From the NCBI RefSeq assembly GCF_027943725.1, contig NZ_AP025696.1, positions 1,217,501-1,281,500 of the forward strand: 64,000 nt of DNA. Reading direction: 5' to 3'. Origin of the DNA: Nitrosophilus kaiyonis (GTDB lineage Bacteria > Campylobacterota > Campylobacteria > Campylobacterales > Nitratiruptoraceae). This document shows, piece after piece, positions 20,399 to 51,696 of this stretch (positions within the stretch are counted from its first letter, which is position 1; each line of letters starts with the position of its first letter). The notes beneath the pieces are model-generated. The model ran no database searches. It saw only the letters and a program-made list of their open reading frames with translations, and was not told the origin of the DNA. The translations under genes were made by a program, and so were the position numbers.

Positions 20399-21353
20399 TA
20401 TCAAAAAAATAGATTTTAAAAATAGTGATAAATATAAATTAATATATATAAATGGCAGATTTTTTTCAAATATGGACAGTTCCAAACATTTAACATTTTT
20501 AAATATATTAAAATGGAAAATCAAAAGTTTTGATTTATTTGATTTTTCTTCACAAAAAAGTTGTCTTGAAATAGACAAAAATTTAAAATCGTTAAATGAT
20601 GAAAAAGATAAAATAGTTTGGCTCACACATTCAACTATTTATATTAAAGTTAATAAAAAAGATATCTTAATTGATCCAGTATTTGAAGATTTTATCGGTT
20701 ATAAAAGGTATGTAAAATCTCCATATCGATATGATGATTTTAAAAATATAGATATTGTTTTAGTTTCACATTCACATTATGATCATTGTGATAAAAGATC
20801 ACTTAAAAATCTCTTTATAAAATTTAATCCTTTATTTGTATTACCAAAATTTTTAAATATATTGCCAGATAAAGTAAAAAAAGTAGATCTTTTATGGTTT
20901 GAATCTGTTAATTTTGAAAATTTTAAAATTGTTTTTCTTCCTTCTTATCACTGGCGTAGAAGAGGGCTATTTGATAAAAATCGATCACTTTGGGGAAGTT
21001 TTTTAATAGATACTGGAAAAATTACAATTTACTTTGCAGGAGATAGTGGTTACAATACCCATTTTAAAGATATTGGAGAAAATTTTAATATTGATATTGC
21101 TATTTTGCCAATTGGAGCGTATAAGCCATCTTTTATTATGAGACCTAGCCATTTAAATCCAAAAGAGGCGCTTTTGGCTTTTAAGGATTTAAATGCTAAA
21201 CTATTTATTCCTGTGCATTATGGGACTTTTAAACTATCAGATGAGCCATTATGTGAACCAATTGAAGTTTTGAAAAAAATAGCTAAAGATGAAAAAATTA
21301 AAGTATTAAATCCAGGAGAAATTTTTTATTTGGAGGAAATATGGAAAAAATAG
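20385..21353 (+). CDS. Metallo-beta-lactamase-fold hydrolase, NAPE-PLD/UlaG-like (copy 1)
   Basis: About 322 residues; MBL fold starting near residue 85 with WLTHSTIYIKV, IDPVF, the metal motif VSHSHYDHCD (HxHxDH), PSYHWRRRG, FAGDSGYN and IPVHYGTFKLSD. Conserved binuclear-metal ligands are all visible. Similar to NAPE-phospholipase D-like and UlaG-like hydrolases; the substrate is unknown and a lipid phosphodiester is only a guess. A paralogue is at 37981-38970. Start either GTG 20379 or ATG 20385, both inside the glucosaminidase gene and without a clear Shine-Dalgarno, suggesting translational coupling. Confidence 0.75.
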   Translation: MLLYSIKKIDFKNSDKYKLIYINGRFFSNMDSSKHLTFLNILKWKIKSFDLFDFSSQKSCLEIDKNLKSLNDEKDKIVWLTHSTIYIKVNKKDILIDPVFEDFIGYKRYVKSPYRYDDFKNIDIVLVSHSHYDHCDKRSLKNLFIKFNPLFVLPKFLNILPDKVKKVDLLWFESVNFENFKIVFLPSYHWRRRGLFDKNRSLWGSFLIDTGKITIYFAGDSGYNTHFKDIGENFNIDIAILPIGAYKPSFIMRPSHLNPKEALLAFKDLNAKLFIPVHYGTFKLSDEPLCEPIEVLKKIAKDEKIKVLNPGEIFYLEEIWKK

Positions 21354-21727
21354 CTCTTGGAAAATATGCAAAAATGAATAGATTAAGTAGAGCAGAGGTC
21401 ATAAAACTTATTGTTACTAAAAAATTAAAAAGTGAAGAGATAATCGAAAATGGAAGAAAAAAGATATATATATTGATAGATGATAGTGATTATAAAAAAT
21501 ATAATTCAACCAAAAAAGATATAATAAAAGAGTTTTTAAATAAAAACTTTGATTCTTTTAGTGGTGATTTAGAAGAATTGAAAAAAAGAGATTTCAAAAT
21601 ATTAAAAATATTTAAAGATAAGGATAACTATTTTGCTATTATCGATGTAAATGGGGAGTTGAATTTACTAAAAATTTATGAAAAAGAGGAAAAATTTTAT
21701 CTTAATTTTTTAAAAAGATTTAAGTAA
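21341..21727 (+). CDS. Small protein with possible N-terminal HTH
   Basis: 128 residues. The N-terminus (KYAKMNRLSRAEVIKLIVTKKLKSEEI) resembles an excisionase/MerR-like helix-turn-helix, followed by a Lys-rich alpha/beta part of unknown fold. It overlaps the end of the MBL gene by 13 bp and has GGAGG 7 bp before its ATG, so it is a real, coupled gene. I do not recognise the family; DNA binding is a guess from the helix pattern. Confidence 0.5.
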   Translation: MEKIALGKYAKMNRLSRAEVIKLIVTKKLKSEEIIENGRKKIYILIDDSDYKKYNSTKKDIIKEFLNKNFDSFSGDLEELKKRDFKILKIFKDKDNYFAIIDVNGELNLLKIYEKEEKFYLNFLKRFK

Positions 21728-21749
21728 ATGTTTCTATTTATTATCAATC

Positions 21750-21763
21750 TTGATTATAATCAA
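21750..21763 (+). promoter_or_regulatory. FNR/CRP-type palindrome TTGAT-N4-ATCAA
   Basis: A perfect 14-bp palindrome TTGATTATAATCAA matches the FNR consensus half-sites. If the TATTAT at 21786-21791 is the -10 and transcription starts near 21798, the palindrome is centred at about -41.5, the class II activator position. It lies upstream of the pentahaem cytochrome gene. Confidence 0.6.
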
Positions 21764-21785
21764 ATTTTAGTTTAATTTTTTTAGA

Positions 21786-21791
21786 TATTAT
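21786..21791 (+). promoter_or_regulatory. Likely -10 element of the multihaem cytochrome gene
   Basis: TATTAT, 24 bp before the ATG at 21815; no good -35, as expected for an activator-dependent promoter. Spacing to the FNR-type palindrome supports the assignment. Confidence 0.45.
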
Positions 21792-21814
21792 CCCTTAAAA
21801 AAATAGGCTTTAAT

Positions 21815-22927
21815 ATGAAAAAATTTTTGATTTTATTGATTGCTCTATTTTTATATTCTCAAGATTTTACACCTAGCAAAGTATGTAAAGGTTGCCATCC
21901 TGTAATTTATAAAGAGTATAAAAACTCTATGCATTTTAAATCAACAATATTTAGAGATGAAATACATAAAAAAGTTTTTATAAAACATCCTTTATATAAA
22001 AAAAACTCTTATAAATGTGCAAAATGCCATTCTCCTACCGATAAGACTCTTTTAAAAAATATTGCCTTACATAAAAAAGCTCTTCCAGATATAAAAAGTA
22101 TAGGTCAAAAAGAGGCAATTTCATGTGCCTATTGCCATAGAATAAAAAATATTGAAAAACATGCAAAAATGAATAAAAATATAATAAATGAAAAAGGTAA
22201 ATATTTTTATGCGTATGATGAAAATATTAAAGGAGTAAAAAAATATAAAATAAAAAGCGGCATTTTTAATACAATAGAAGGCTCACCTTTCCATATTATA
22301 GATGGAAAAAATGAGATTTATAAAAATGGTAAGGTTTGTATGGGTTGCCATTCACATAAACAAAATTCTCATGGTTTAGAAGTATGTAAAACTGATTATG
22401 ATAATAAAAGCAAAAAAAACTGTATAGATTGTCATATGCCAAAAATTTTAGGAAGTTTTGTAAACCATAAAGATACAAAAACTCATAGATATCATGGTTT
22501 TGCAGGAATTTTTAATAATCCAGAATATTTAAAAAAATATATAGAAGTTAAAGTAGTAAATAGGTCTCCTCTTATTATAAGAGTTAAAAATAAAACATCA
22601 CATAATCTTTTGTTGCATCCTTTGAGAGTATTGGCTTTAAAAGTTTATATATATGAAAAAGAAAAATTAGTAAAAATTTTAGAAGAAAGATTTTTTAAAC
22701 AGTTTGGAAAAGATGGTAAAAAAGCCGCAATATGGGAAGCTAACGAAGTTTTGAAAGATAATACTATTAAAGCAAATAAGACAAAAGATATAAATTTTTT
22801 AATAGATTCAAAAAACAGGAAAATAAAAATAGAGTTAGGATTTTATGTAGTCAATCCAAAAATAGCAAAAAAACTAAGACTGAATAGATTTTCAAAATTT
22901 AAGATATTAAAAATAATAGAATTATAA
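21815..22927 (+). CDS. Periplasmic pentahaem c-type cytochrome
   Basis: 370 residues with a short Sec signal peptide (MKKFLILLIALFLYSQ). Five CxxCH haem-binding motifs: CKGCH (24-28), CAKCH (68-72), CAYCH (104-108), CMGCH (175-179) and CIDCH (203-207); extra histidines nearby can serve as distal ligands. The C-terminal 150 residues are haem-free and beta-rich. The layout resembles cytochrome c554-related electron-transfer proteins, but the partner is not indicated by neighbours, because it stands alone between the dprA operon and a terminator. Upstream FNR-type site suggests control by oxygen or another respiratory signal. Confidence 0.85.
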   Translation: MKKFLILLIALFLYSQDFTPSKVCKGCHPVIYKEYKNSMHFKSTIFRDEIHKKVFIKHPLYKKNSYKCAKCHSPTDKTLLKNIALHKKALPDIKSIGQKEAISCAYCHRIKNIEKHAKMNKNIINEKGKYFYAYDENIKGVKKYKIKSGIFNTIEGSPFHIIDGKNEIYKNGKVCMGCHSHKQNSHGLEVCKTDYDNKSKKNCIDCHMPKILGSFVNHKDTKTHRYHGFAGIFNNPEYLKKYIEVKVVNRSPLIIRVKNKTSHNLLLHPLRVLALKVYIYEKEKLVKILEERFFKQFGKDGKKAAIWEANEVLKDNTIKANKTKDINFLIDSKNRKIKIELGFYVVNPKIAKKLRLNRFSKFKILKIIEL

Positions 22928-22935
22928 AAACATTA

Positions 22936-22954
22936 CAGCCCCAGTTTAGGGCTG
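22936..22954. terminator. Bidirectional terminator
   Basis: CAGCCC (22936-22941) and GGGCTG (22949-22954) form a 6-bp GC stem with a 7-nt loop, followed by CTTTT on the plus strand. It separates the cytochrome gene from a small convergent gene on the minus strand. Confidence 0.7.
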
Positions 22955-22961
22955 CTTTTAA

Positions 22962-23099
22962 TTAGCTATTTGAATCAGCTTTTATATATTCTGGTTTAAT
23001 TGTCTCTTTTTCACCATCTTCAAACCAGTATGGATTTACATATTCGCTTGCGTAACTTATTGCTGCAAATGCCAATAAAGCTAAAGTTAACTTTTTCAT
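22962..23099 (-). CDS. Small secreted protein, 45 residues, unknown function
   Basis: Too short for usual ORF cut-offs. The minus-strand frame begins ATG at 23099 with a strong AAAGGAGTAAAA Shine-Dalgarno, has a clean signal peptide (MKKLTLALLAFAAISYA, likely cut after SYA) and a 28-residue mature part rich in Glu, Tyr and Lys (SEYVNPYWFEDGEKE then TIKPEYIKADSNS). It ends next to a bidirectional terminator. Ribosome binding site, signal peptide and terminator together make it a convincing gene. No family recognised; the mature peptide is acidic and has no cysteine. Confidence 0.7.
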   Translation of the reverse strand: MKKLTLALLAFAAISYASEYVNPYWFEDGEKETIKPEYIKADSNS

Positions 23100-23221
23100 T
23101 TTTACTCCTTTTTTTTGAATATGAGAATTATACTCATTTTTACTTAAATAAGACTTATTTTATCCTATTTAAATTTTTAATCTATATTTTAGTAAAATTT
23201 AAAAAATTTTAAAGGAAGTAA

Positions 23222-24319
23222 ATGAGTTTTTACAAAAAAGTTTTTACATACACTTTGGCAATACTTTTACTTATGATTGCTTGGAGGCTAATTCCTTTTT
23301 TAGAGATAGCTATAAGTGCTCAGCCTAAACCAGTTACGCCAAGAGGTGAATTAAGCCCAATTGAAAAAACAAATATAGAGATTTTTGAAAAAAGCAAAGA
23401 TAGTGTTGTTTATATTTCTACATTAGAGCAAGTTGTAGATCTTTGGAGTTTAAGTGTTTTTAATATCCCAAAAGGAACAGGTAGCGGCTTTGTTTGGGAT
23501 AAATTTGGTCATATTGTAACAAATTTTCATGTAATTGAAGGGGCAAGTGAGGCAAGAGTTAGGCTTAGCAATGGACAAGATTACAAGGCTATTCTAATTG
23601 GAGCCGATCCATCTCATGATTTAGCTGTTTTGAAAATAAATCCTGTCCCAGGCGTTATGAAACCTATAATTATAGGTACTTCTAAAGATTTAAAAGTAGG
23701 GCAACTTGTATATGCTATTGGAAATCCTTTTGGTCTTGATTGGACAATGACAAGTGGAATCATATCTGCTCTTGATAGAGTTATTGATGAAGAAAATGGT
23801 GCAAAAATAAAGCATGCAATTCAAACAGATGCTGCCATCAATCCTGGCAATTCTGGAGGACCTCTTCTTGATAGTGCAGGAAGAGTGATTGGAGTAAATA
23901 CTGCAATTTATAGTCCAAGTGGAGCATATGCTGGCATAGGCTTTGCTATACCGATAGATTTAGTAAATAAAGTTGTATCTCAGTTAATAGCCTATGGAAG
24001 ATATAAAAGGGCAGATATTGGAATAGAGAGTGATGATAGAATCAATAGACTTTTAAAAAAGAGATTTAATATAGAAGGCGTTGCAATACTTGGTATAAAA
24101 CCAGGAAGTAGTGCTTATGAAGCAGGTTTAATCCCAGCAAAAATATATCCAGATGGTAGAATCATTTTTGGAGACATTATCATAGAAGCTGATGGTAAAA
24201 AGGTTGCCTCTTTAAAAGATTTAGATGAGATTTTAGAAGAAAAAAATATAGGAGATACAATTATCTTAACAGTAAAAAGAGGGGAAAAAGTTTTAAAAAT
24301 ATCCGTTATTTTAAAATAG
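23222..24319 (+). CDS. DegS/HtrA-like membrane-anchored serine protease
   Basis: 365 residues: one N-terminal membrane anchor (about 9-32), a trypsin-like protease domain with catalytic His103 (NFHVIEG), Asp133 (DPSHDLAVL) and Ser211 (NPGNSGGPL), and one PDZ domain (about 265-365). One PDZ plus an uncleaved anchor is the DegS layout rather than the soluble two-PDZ DegP. Role: periplasmic protein quality control or envelope-stress sensing. Good AAAGGAAG Shine-Dalgarno. Ends in a terminator shared with the convergent ferritin-like gene. Confidence 0.88.
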   Translation: MSFYKKVFTYTLAILLLMIAWRLIPFLEIAISAQPKPVTPRGELSPIEKTNIEIFEKSKDSVVYISTLEQVVDLWSLSVFNIPKGTGSGFVWDKFGHIVTNFHVIEGASEARVRLSNGQDYKAILIGADPSHDLAVLKINPVPGVMKPIIIGTSKDLKVGQLVYAIGNPFGLDWTMTSGIISALDRVIDEENGAKIKHAIQTDAAINPGNSGGPLLDSAGRVIGVNTAIYSPSGAYAGIGFAIPIDLVNKVVSQLIAYGRYKRADIGIESDDRINRLLKKRFNIEGVAILGIKPGSSAYEAGLIPAKIYPDGRIIFGDIIIEADGKKVASLKDLDEILEEKNIGDTIILTVKRGEKVLKISVILK

Positions 24320-24343
24320 AGAGATATAAAATCTCTCTATTTT
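24313..24343. terminator. Bidirectional terminator containing both stop codons
   Basis: AAAATAGAGAGAT (24313-24325) and ATCTCTCTATTTT (24331-24343) form a perfect 13-bp stem with a 5-nt loop; T runs flank both sides. The stop of the DegS-like gene (24317-24319) and the stop of the ferritin-like gene (24337-24339) are both inside the stem. Confidence 0.8.
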
Positions 24344-24846
24344 AGTTTAAATTGATCTATAAATTCTTGAATATCTTCATATAGTGCTTGAAGATCCTCT
24401 TCATGCTCCACCTCATCAGCCAAAATTTGGCTTACAATATCATATGTAACTATATCTTTTCCTTGTGTGATTTCAGCAATTTTGCTATAAACATCTATAG
24501 CACACTGTTCTCCCTTAATAGCTTGTTCTAAAACTTTTAAAACATCTGGATTTGTTGGCGCTTCATAGGCACAATTTGCATATGTAAACCAATCTTTTGG
24601 ATGAATCAGTGGCTCGCCTCCAAGCTGTAAAATACGATCAGCTACCATTGTTGCATGTCTTAGTTCATCTGCCGCATGTTGATTTAGCTCAGCTACTACG
24701 CCATCTTTCATAATTCCTTTTACAACTTTTGCTTCAATAAAATATTGATAATATGCAAGCCACTCATCAGCATACGCTTTATTTAATAAAGCTATAACCT
24801 CATCTGCCTCAATACCTTTTAATATACTTATCCCTTTTCTTGCCAT
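24337..24846 (-). CDS. Ferritin-like DPS-like (DpsL) protein
   Basis: 169 residues, a four-helix ferritin-like fold. Carboxylate/His metal ligands are visible as DEWLAYYQYF (Glu28), ADELRHATMVAD (ExxH at 61-64), EQAIKGEQCAIDVY and ADEVEHEEDLQ. The pattern is that of thermostable DPS-like proteins, which oxidise and store iron using peroxide and protect DNA. Three bp from the desulforubrerythrin gene and downstream of it, so both are likely in one peroxide-defence operon. Confidence 0.75.
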   Translation of the reverse strand: MARKGISILKGIEADEVIALLNKAYADEWLAYYQYFIEAKVVKGIMKDGVVAELNQHAADELRHATMVADRILQLGGEPLIHPKDWFTYANCAYEAPTNPDVLKVLEQAIKGEQCAIDVYSKIAEITQGKDIVTYDIVSQILADEVEHEEDLQALYEDIQEFIDQFKLK

Positions 24847-24849
24847 TTT

Positions 24850-25509
24850 TTATCCTTTCGTTACGTCTTCACATTTTTTCTTAAAATATTCACTATCAGC
24901 TTTACAAAGTGGGCAGTTTTTAGGTGGTTTTTTTCCTCTATGCACATGACCGCACACTTCGCATACCCACTCTTCTTCCTCTTCACTATTAAAAAATCCT
25001 TCAGCTTCCAAAGCTTCTATTAACTCTCTATACTCTTTTTCATGTTCAACTTCTACTTTTCCTATAGCTTTAAGCATTCTGGCAATCTCATTTAACCCTT
25101 CCTCTTTTGCTATTTTAGCAAAGTTAGGATACATAATCTCATGTTCATATTTTTCACCCTCGGCTGCATATTCAAGATTTTTTCTTGTAGTATCAAGTTC
25201 AACATTATTAACAAGTTTGTTATAGGCTTTAAATTCAGCCATTGCATGATATTTCTCATTATCCGCTGCTTCTTGAAAAAATCTTGCAATTCTGTGATAA
25301 CCCTCTTCAAATGCGATTTGAGCAAAAAACTCATATTTGTTTCTTGCCATAGATTCACCTGCAAAAGCTTTCATTAAATTTACAGCTGTAAGATTTTCTG
25401 TAATACACTCCATCTCTTCCCCACAACAAACAAGAGTTCCACCTCCAACTTTTTGCACTTCAACTTCATTTCCACATTTATTGCATCTGTATGTTTCATA
25501 CTCTCTCAT
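24850..25509 (-). CDS. Desulforubrerythrin
   Basis: 219 residues with three modules: an N-terminal desulforedoxin-like [FeCys4] domain (C9, C12, C28, C29 in YRCNKCG...LVCCGEEM), a rubrerythrin di-iron four-helix domain (about 40-175, with [23 protein letters not shown] and [12 protein letters not shown]), and a C-terminal rubredoxin domain ([21 protein letters not shown]). This three-part protein is the NADH-linked peroxide reductase type known from Campylobacter jejuni. ATG 25509 is chosen because AAAGG stands 7 bp before it; the in-frame ATG at 25524 has no such site. Divergent from a PerR/Fur-family regulator. Confidence 0.9.
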
Positions 25510-25533
25510 TTTTTTACCTTTCATAATAATATT

Positions 25534-25554
25534 AAAGGAAAAATTTTTTCCTTT
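25534..25554. promoter_or_regulatory. 21-bp palindrome before desulforubrerythrin
   Basis: AAAGGAAAAA (25534-25543) and TTTTTCCTTT (25545-25554) are perfect inverted arms around one T, about 25 bp before the desulforubrerythrin start. It could be an operator for the divergent PerR-like regulator or a leader hairpin; it does not look like the classical PerR box. Confidence 0.4.
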
Positions 25555-25645
25555 GAGAAATTATTGCATTAATATCCTTAGAAAAAAATTAAATAAAGAA
25601 AAAAATTATCAATTAAAATAAAATATGTAAGAGAATTATTATTAT

Positions 25646-25674
25646 TTGACAAAAAAATAAAATTAGTGTATAAG
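25646..25674 (+). promoter_or_regulatory. Sigma70-type promoter of the PerR/Fur-family gene
   Basis: TTGACA (25646-25651), 17-bp spacer, TATAAG (25669-25674), 33 bp before the ATG at 25708. An AATTATTATTATT stretch overlapping the -35 resembles half of a PerR/Fur-type operator and could mediate autoregulation. Confidence 0.6.
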
Positions 25675-25707
25675 CATAAATAAATATTATTTTATAGGGG
25701 GAAATCA

Positions 25708-26121
25708 ATGAAAGGGTTAAATTATCAAGAGCTTCTTAAAAAATATGATCTTAAAGCTACTCCGCAAAGGGTTATATTTTTAAATGAGTTAGAAAAAAAT
25801 GGACATTTAAGTATCGAGGAACTTGAAGAGAAAATCAAAAAAATCATTCCTTCAGTTTCAACAGCGACAATTTATAAAAATATTAATGCAATGGTTGAAA
25901 AGGGACTATTAAGTGAAGTTAAACTTCCAAACAGTAAAAATAGATATGAAATAACAAAAGATTCCCATGCTCATTTTATATGTGAAAAATGTTCAAAAGT
26001 TGAAGATTTATATATTGATGATGAATGTTTAAAAAACAATATTGATAAAAATATAGTAATAAATGATATAGATATAGTTATAAAAGGTATATGTGAGGAG
26101 TGTAGCAAGAAAGAGCTATAG
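25708..26121 (+). CDS. Fur-family regulator, probably PerR
   Basis: 137 residues: winged-helix DNA-binding domain (DLKATPQRVIFLNELEKNGH, then PSVSTATIYKNINAMVEKGLL), and a dimerisation domain with SHAHFICEKCSKVEDL (H87, H89, C92, C95) and a second CxxC near the end (GICEEC, C129/C132). Two CxxC pairs give the structural zinc of PerR-type proteins. Candidate regulatory ligands are H33, D85, H87, H89 and D104. Divergence from desulforubrerythrin and DpsL favours PerR over Fur or Zur. GGGGGAAA Shine-Dalgarno. Overlaps xth by 6 bp tail to tail. Confidence 0.8.
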   Translation: MKGLNYQELLKKYDLKATPQRVIFLNELEKNGHLSIEELEEKIKKIIPSVSTATIYKNINAMVEKGLLSEVKLPNSKNRYEITKDSHAHFICEKCSKVEDLYIDDECLKNNIDKNIVINDIDIVIKGICEECSKKEL

Positions 26122-50999: not shown

Positions 51000-51696
51000 A
51001 GTATTTAGCAAACCAATAAAAAAACAGTTTGAGTTTGATGAAGAGGTTGCATCTGTATTTGATGATATGATAGCAAGATCTGTTCCATTTTATAAAGAGG
51101 TTTTAGATCTTGTTTCTACTTTGGTAGTAAAAAATTCTAAAGAGGGATCAATAGTCTATGATCTTGGATGTTCAACTGGATCAACTTTAATAGAAATTTT
51201 TTCAAAAAGTGATAAAGAGTTGAATTTGATAGGACTTGATAACTCTTCTCATATGATAGAAAGAGCAAAGAAAAAAGCAAAAGCTTATGGTGCAAAGATA
51301 GATTTTATAAAGAATGATATTTTAGATTTTAATTATAAAAAAGCTGACTGTTTTATTTCAAATTACACTTTTCAATTTATTAGACCATTGAAAAGAGATA
51401 AGCTTGTAAAAAAGATTTATGATTCTTTAAATGATGGTGGAATTTTGATTTTTAGTGAAAAGGTAATTAGTGAAGATAAGATTTTAAATAAGCAGCTTAT
51501 AGATATATATTTTGATTTTAAGAAAAAACAAGGGTATAGCGAATTTGAGATAATGCAAAAAAGAGAAGCTTTAGAAAATGTTTTAGTTCCATATAGTGTA
51601 AAAGAGAATGAAGAGATGATAAAAAATGCAGGCTTTAAATATTTTGAAACAGTCTTTAGATGGGCAAATTTTGCAACATTTTTTGCTAGGAAATAG
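50989..51696 (+). CDS. cmoA: Carboxy-SAM synthase CmoA
   Basis: 235 residues. Converts SAM and prephenate to carboxy-SAM used by CmoB to make cmo5U in tRNA wobble positions. [33 protein letters not shown] is the CmoA N-terminus (here in parts), then [42 protein letters not shown] and SEKVISEDK. Overlaps the DUF255 gene by 11 bp. In Campylobacter it follows ribF as I remember, so the DUF255 gene looks like an insertion. Confidence 0.9.

Follow-up and report, generated by a model that had tools for sequence, protein, structure and literature searches.

The window analysed here is a stretch of 64,000 nucleotides covering positions 1217501–1281500 of the 1,769,550-base single-contig genome of Nitrosophilus kaiyonis. 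Within it, the palindrome TTGATTATAATCAA lies between a 128-aa ORF (21341–21727), for which no Pfam or NCBIfam family match was found, and an ORF of 370 aa that contains five CXXCH motifs, and it is the only zero-mismatch occurrence of TTGATN4ATCAA in the window. The sequence-only reading had described a perfect FNR-type palindrome followed by a TATTAT hexamer and a five-haem gene; both elements lay exactly where it had placed them, and the five haem-binding motifs were recovered in the downstream ORF. The class II spacing that it proposed also held up, as the -10 hexamer at 22 nt puts the centre of the predicted site at -41.5 from an inferred start, and the same spacing was repeated elsewhere in the genome and in relatives. 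The class II reading of this promoter is well supported at the level of sequence. Pattern scanning of positions 21600–23300 returned 12 sigma-70 matches, no excess over shuffled sequences, and revealed no sigma-70 -35/-10 pair at the cytochrome promoter. An additional half-site, ATCAA (21743–21747), just upstream of the palindrome was not conserved in three orthologues. The terminator-like hairpin 3' of the cytochrome gene suggests that the gene forms a one-gene transcription unit. A tRNA scan of the 64-kb window detected no tRNA genes. Ferritin-like, rubrerythrin, and Fur-family genes (24337–26121) were located near the cytochrome gene and an htrA-like gene; in two other genomes of the genus (G018 and G020), the cytochrome gene lies directly 3' of the htrA-like gene and adjoins the ferritin-like gene.

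Table 1. Features of the cytochrome locus (window coordinates) and the other intergenic palindromes with a TANNAT hexamer at 22 nt (genome coordinates).
Feature	Position	Strand	Remarks
Nss/Dnr (FNR-type) palindrome TTGATTATAATCAA	21750–21763	+	Centre 21756.5; exact sequence match
-10 hexamer TATTAT	21786–21791	+	22 nt after the palindrome; spacing shared by other sites in this genome and by relatives
Inferred transcription start	21798	+	7 nt past the hexamer; palindrome centre at -41.5
Pentahaem cytochrome c, clade A of the T. tepidum c552-like family	21815–22927	+	370 aa, five CXXCH
Terminator-like hairpin	22936–22954	+	3' of the cytochrome gene; from a pattern scan alone
Palindrome + 22-nt TANNAT	1341 kb		Before a small gene
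Palindrome + 22-nt TANNAT	1347387		Before napA
Palindrome + 22-nt TANNAT	1355675		Before the nor cluster
Palindrome + 22-nt TANNAT	1368120		Before nos-accessory genes
Palindrome + TA...T exactly 22 nt on both sides	1376614–1376627 (L090:18615–18628)		Divergent sirohaem/haem-d1 gene pair

Further sites of this kind, which the sequence-only reading had suggested looking for, were found: genome-wide, there were 21 TTGAYN4RTCAA palindromes, nine of them intergenic and 12 coding according to an ORF scan. A TANNAT hexamer followed exactly 22 nt downstream in six of the nine intergenic palindromes versus one of the 12 coding ones, and a chance origin was therefore excluded. The intergenic palindromes at 512720, 932671, and 1566394 had no TANNAT at this distance. 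The six that did represent seven promoters, since one palindrome faces both directions; this single palindrome, at 1376614, could act at two class II promoters of opposite orientation. A two-sided 22-nt arrangement was also observed in a genome of the same GTDB family (G017:C1:776861–776930). One-mismatch sites with the 22-nt spacing preceded a tetrapyrrole methylase gene (1364263) and a minus-strand gene (1344428–1345027), and at the second pentahaem gene of the genome (1330588), the site has one mismatch and TA...T falls at 20 and 23 nt. The names NosZ, NosD, cd1, molybdopterin oxidoreductase, NirDL-like, and tetrapyrrole methylase were taken from Pfam/NCBIfam, and napA, norC, and norB were named from our own reading of the genes.

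Three Crp-Fnr proteins are encoded in the genome. Two of them carry P-E-T-L-S-R in the recognition helix, an FNR/Dnr-type helix of the kind that the sequence-only reading had suggested looking for, one encoded just before nap (1345106) and the other divergently from nor (1354878–1355516); the helix of the third (709–710 kb) reads R-H-V-V-N-R. We refer to the first two as NssA-like and NssB-like because their arrangement beside nap and nor equals that in N. labii; these names are positional. The best PDB match of the NssB-like regulator was Pseudomonas aeruginosa DNR (E 1e-11), and that of the NssA-like regulator was CRP (E 4e-11), with DNR at 8e-8. The earliest cysteine in any of the three proteins is residue 96; cysteines occur at 96, 102, 106, 120, and 143 in the NssA-like protein and at 119 and 98, respectively, in one each of the other two. 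A regulator resembling the NssB-like one was detected (E ≤ 1e-12) in 258 of the 298 sampled genomes of the order, so its presence has no discriminating power.

These features correspond closely to the Nss regulon of W. succinogenes and N. labii, which shares the motif TTGA-N6-TCAA, regulators encoded beside nap and nor, and nap, nor, and nos as targets (PMC6682613, PMC11539149). In N. labii, two Crp-Fnr genes are located upstream of nap and nor, their products sharing 44.8% and 50.0% identity with NssA and NssB of W. succinogenes, and a search with the Nss consensus TTGA-N6-TCAA identified exact motifs upstream of the starts of napA (49 nt), norE (48 nt), and nosB (48 nt) (PMC11539149). The first base of the palindrome described here lies 48 nt from the inferred start, as compared with 48–49 nt in the Nss systems (PMC6682613, PMC11539149). 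In our genome, the palindrome TTGA-N6-TCAA is present before the cytochrome gene, the sites are common to the nap, nor, and nos genes, and the regulators beside nap and nor combine a Dnr/FNR-type helix with an absence of Fe-S cysteines. The difference is that the targets here include a pentahaem cytochrome outside the denitrification island, which is not named in the available part of the N. labii paper (PMC11539149). The DNR regulon of Pseudomonas and beta-proteobacteria is similar in having TTGATnnnnATCAA sites before nir, nor, and nos (PMC1274295) and a regulator without the FNR cysteine motif that is the best PDB match of our NssB-like protein, but the sequence relationship is distant (E 1e-11) and targets other than the denitrification core occur here.

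Campylobacter jejuni NssR is likewise a Crp-Fnr member from the same phylum and serves in nitrosative stress; however, it recognises TTAACnnnnGTTAA with A180/Q181, as opposed to TTGAY and P-E in the helix here (PMC1274295). The NssR motif TTAAC-N4-GTTAA was absent at our site. The proposal that the regulator differs in type from C. jejuni NssR was thereby borne out (PMC1274295), and a second regulator type does exist, although it was already known in the phylum, where TTGA-N6-TCAA serves as the Nss consensus (PMC11539149).

Taken together, the palindrome is probably an Nss/Dnr-type class II activator site through which a single pentahaem cytochrome gene would be switched on with the denitrification genes. 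In the mechanism that we propose, a nitrate, NO, or N2O signal would lead the NssA-like and/or the NssB-like regulator to bind the palindrome at -41.5 and to make contact with the sigma-70 RNA polymerase that occupies the -10 hexamer TATTAT. Transcription of one gene, encoding a secreted pentahaem cytochrome c, would then be induced along with that of nap, nor-nir, and the nos-accessory and haem d1 genes. The cytochrome would most likely serve as a periplasmic electron carrier for NO-forming denitrification, for example to cd1 nitrite reductase, or in NO handling. The site itself is of a known kind, the Nss/Dnr regulon, and the conserved pentahaem cytochrome is apparently a new and unreported member; a literature search covering mostly freely available papers, and their main texts rather than supplements, returned no mention of it as a target of Nss-type regulation.

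A class II position with a -10 element at a fixed distance is the arrangement of an activator, and it stands against the alternative that the regulator acts as a repressor, as was inferred for N. labii nosZ, or that there is competition between the two Nss proteins at the site. Activation is nevertheless not certain, because both regulator genes correlated negatively with nosZ in N. labii time courses (PMC11539149); on balance, we regard repression or competition as unlikely. Use of the site by an oxygen-sensing [4Fe-4S] FNR, with the gene merely induced anaerobically, appears improbable: the sequence matches the FNR box perfectly and its geometry fits class II, but the N-terminal cysteine cluster of FNR is absent from all three Crp-Fnr proteins. 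The sequence-only reading had allowed for oxygen- or nitrosative-stress-dependent expression; oxygen sensing by an FNR is therefore unsupported, and NO, nitrate, or N2O is more likely than oxygen to be the inducing signal of the predicted Nss/Dnr-type activation.

Orthologues of the cytochrome with 56–59% identity were found in G018, G020, and G017, the first two being among the four sampled genomes of the same genus (G018–G021) and the third belonging to the same GTDB family. Their upstream regions contained the sites TTAATATTTATCAA (G018), TTGATTTTTATCAA (G020), and TTGACAATTATCAT (G017) 68–71 nt before the start codon, so that the palindrome was intact or had one mismatch in all four close orthologues, our own copy included; one half-site in G018 reads TTAAT. 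Shuffled upstream sequences matched the observed quality in the same offset window with P values of 0.0038 (G018), 5e-5 (G020), and 0.0054 (G017), and none of 20,000 shuffles did so for our own site. The -10 element was at 22 nt in our genome, G020, and G017, and G018 had TANNAT at 19 and 21 nt. Across the orthologue sites, the central four bases varied while the half-sites remained constant. This pattern runs counter to use of the site by a Fur/PerR-type regulator, for which a Fur-family gene (25708–26121) and rubrerythrin/ferritin genes nearby and a palindrome centre reading TTATAAT might speak: the central four bases are free and TTGAY/RTCAA is constant, which makes this alternative highly unlikely.

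To the order as a whole, we extended the comparison with cytochrome homologues (E ≤ 1e-40), which were present in 84 of the 298 sampled genomes. A total of 116 loci were fetched and 113 were usable for promoter counts, L033 being excluded for too little upstream sequence and L043 and L254 as odd; the fetched set stood apart from three partial homologue matches (two in G218 and one in G176) and several weak ones in the orthologue search. Sites with up to one mismatch occurred in 50 of the 113 upstream regions versus 4.30 in shuffles, and perfect sites in 30 versus 0.17. When a site was combined with TA...T at 21–23 nt, this composite was found in 48 upstream regions versus 0.50 in shuffles. The TA...T lay at 21 nt in 10, 22 nt in 33, and 23 nt in five of the 50 sites, and any other 3-nt offset window tested gave TA...T in no more than 15. 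Start codons of family members were chosen by script, and 42 of the 48 composite sites began 58–80 nt before them. The conservation of the motif columns is a product of site selection, whereas spacing and position are independent of that selection. One-mismatch matches to TTGATN4ATCAA are common in the AT-rich window (19 observed vs 12.5 expected), so the bare motif count carries little weight, but the retention across several families of both half-sites, a free centre, one position, and a fixed -10 spacing, together with the excess of composites over shuffles, leaves very little room for a chance AT-rich inverted repeat or a mere -35-like TTGATT. Because the -10 element lies at 21–23 nt in 48 of the 50 sites, the promoter is usable as a template to predict the Nss regulon order-wide.

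A quick phylogenetic tree of 113 rows, drawn without L038, L043, and L254, resolved distinct clades. The composite site was present in 45 and absent in 15 of the 60 rows of clade A (support 90), and it occurred in none of the 35 members with usable upstream sequence in clade C (36 rows, support 95). Clade B (12 rows) contained three composite sites, all from the genus of our genome, and the five remaining rows outside clades A–C contained none. After thinning at 60% identity, the counts were 17 of 27 in clade A versus 0 of 10 in clade C. Sites in clade A were found in the families f1, f4, f6, f7, f9, and f17. The clade A and C counts thus indicate that one paralogue kept the promoter order-wide and its sister paralogue is without it, in several cases within the same genome.

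The N-terminus of the cytochrome looks like a signal peptide, and no Pfam or NCBIfam family was found that gives the protein a specific function. A profile built from 20 members matched the T. tepidum pentahaem cytochrome c552 (PDB 5ze8) with an E value of 5e-25; the match covers two segments, with the C-terminal part included, and the next one was a multihaem selenoprotein at 0.003. The T. tepidum protein is related to the ExtKL/sPHC family (PMC11976967). Our protein resembles this group in the profile match and its five CXXCH motifs and differs from it in regulation and genomic setting. All 60 clade A members carry five CXXCH motifs. Histidines 40, 160, 224, 227, and 263 are invariant in the clade, histidine 181 is conserved in 58 and histidine 58 in 53 of the 60 members, so that seven conserved non-CXXCH histidines are available for five haems. 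The hallmark of the NrfA pentahaem nitrite reductase is CXXCK; this active-site haem motif was absent, all five motifs being CXXCH in every one of the 60 clade A members. The histidines would suffice for five bis-His haems, which makes an NrfA-like enzyme less likely than an electron carrier. Structure prediction of the cytochrome from two sequences gave a mean pLDDT of 41, too poor for fold comparison.

The conserved position of the site before the pentahaem protein suggests that the protein belongs to nitrogen-oxide respiration. Neighbourhoods were covered for 20 of the 26 top distant cytochrome loci, and in four of these 20 (G054, G151, G210, and G132), the cytochrome was located in the same stretch as haem d1, nor, or nap genes. 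In G054, the cytochrome gene follows a NirDL-like gene that carries a perfect site in its promoter. The other 16 of the 20 were without denitrification genes nearby, apart from weak ferredoxin-type matches in three of them. A cd1-domain protein (E ≤ 1e-20) was encoded in 56 of the 58 clade A genomes versus 53 of the 240 others (Fisher 2e-27, phylogeny ignored), and in 79 of the 84 genomes with any family member versus 30 of the 214 without (phylogeny likewise ignored). At the threshold used, 30 of the 109 cd1 genomes had no such cytochrome. The domain model PF02239 also picks up cd1 relatives, with three matches in our own genome. A broader and tentative proposal, to which we would give slightly less than an even chance, makes clade A a so far overlooked core part of NO-forming denitrification in the whole of Campylobacterales. 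In this view, Nss/Dnr class II control of the clade would predate the divergence of the families, and the cytochrome would be dedicated to cd1 nitrite reduction, either supplying it with electrons or protecting it. On the evidence as a whole, the anonymous pentahaem family, previously without a known function, gains a testable place in the nitrogen-oxide respiration of vent and sediment Campylobacterota, organisms of importance for N2O turnover.

Additional candidate sites were observed among the related genomes. In G017 (L139:1561), G018 (L135:1491), and G020 (G020:C22:4012), the interval between two genes contains a perfect site with TAAAAT at 22 nt, and one of the flanking genes starts MLNEQ..KEVL.TVTYPGFTKDIV and is Mrp-like by sequence reading; our own copy of this site (51291–51332, minus strand) has one mismatch. 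The Mrp-like gene is a possible Fe-S assembly member of the regulon. Also in G017, a 472-aa ORF containing 11 CXXCH motifs is preceded by a perfect TTGAYN4RTCAA site (L142:1427–1440) that has TATCAT at 22 nt, and another perfect site with TATAAT at 22 nt (L143:1505–1518) lies before two ORFs whose products resemble, by our reading, a haem-copper or NO reductase pair.
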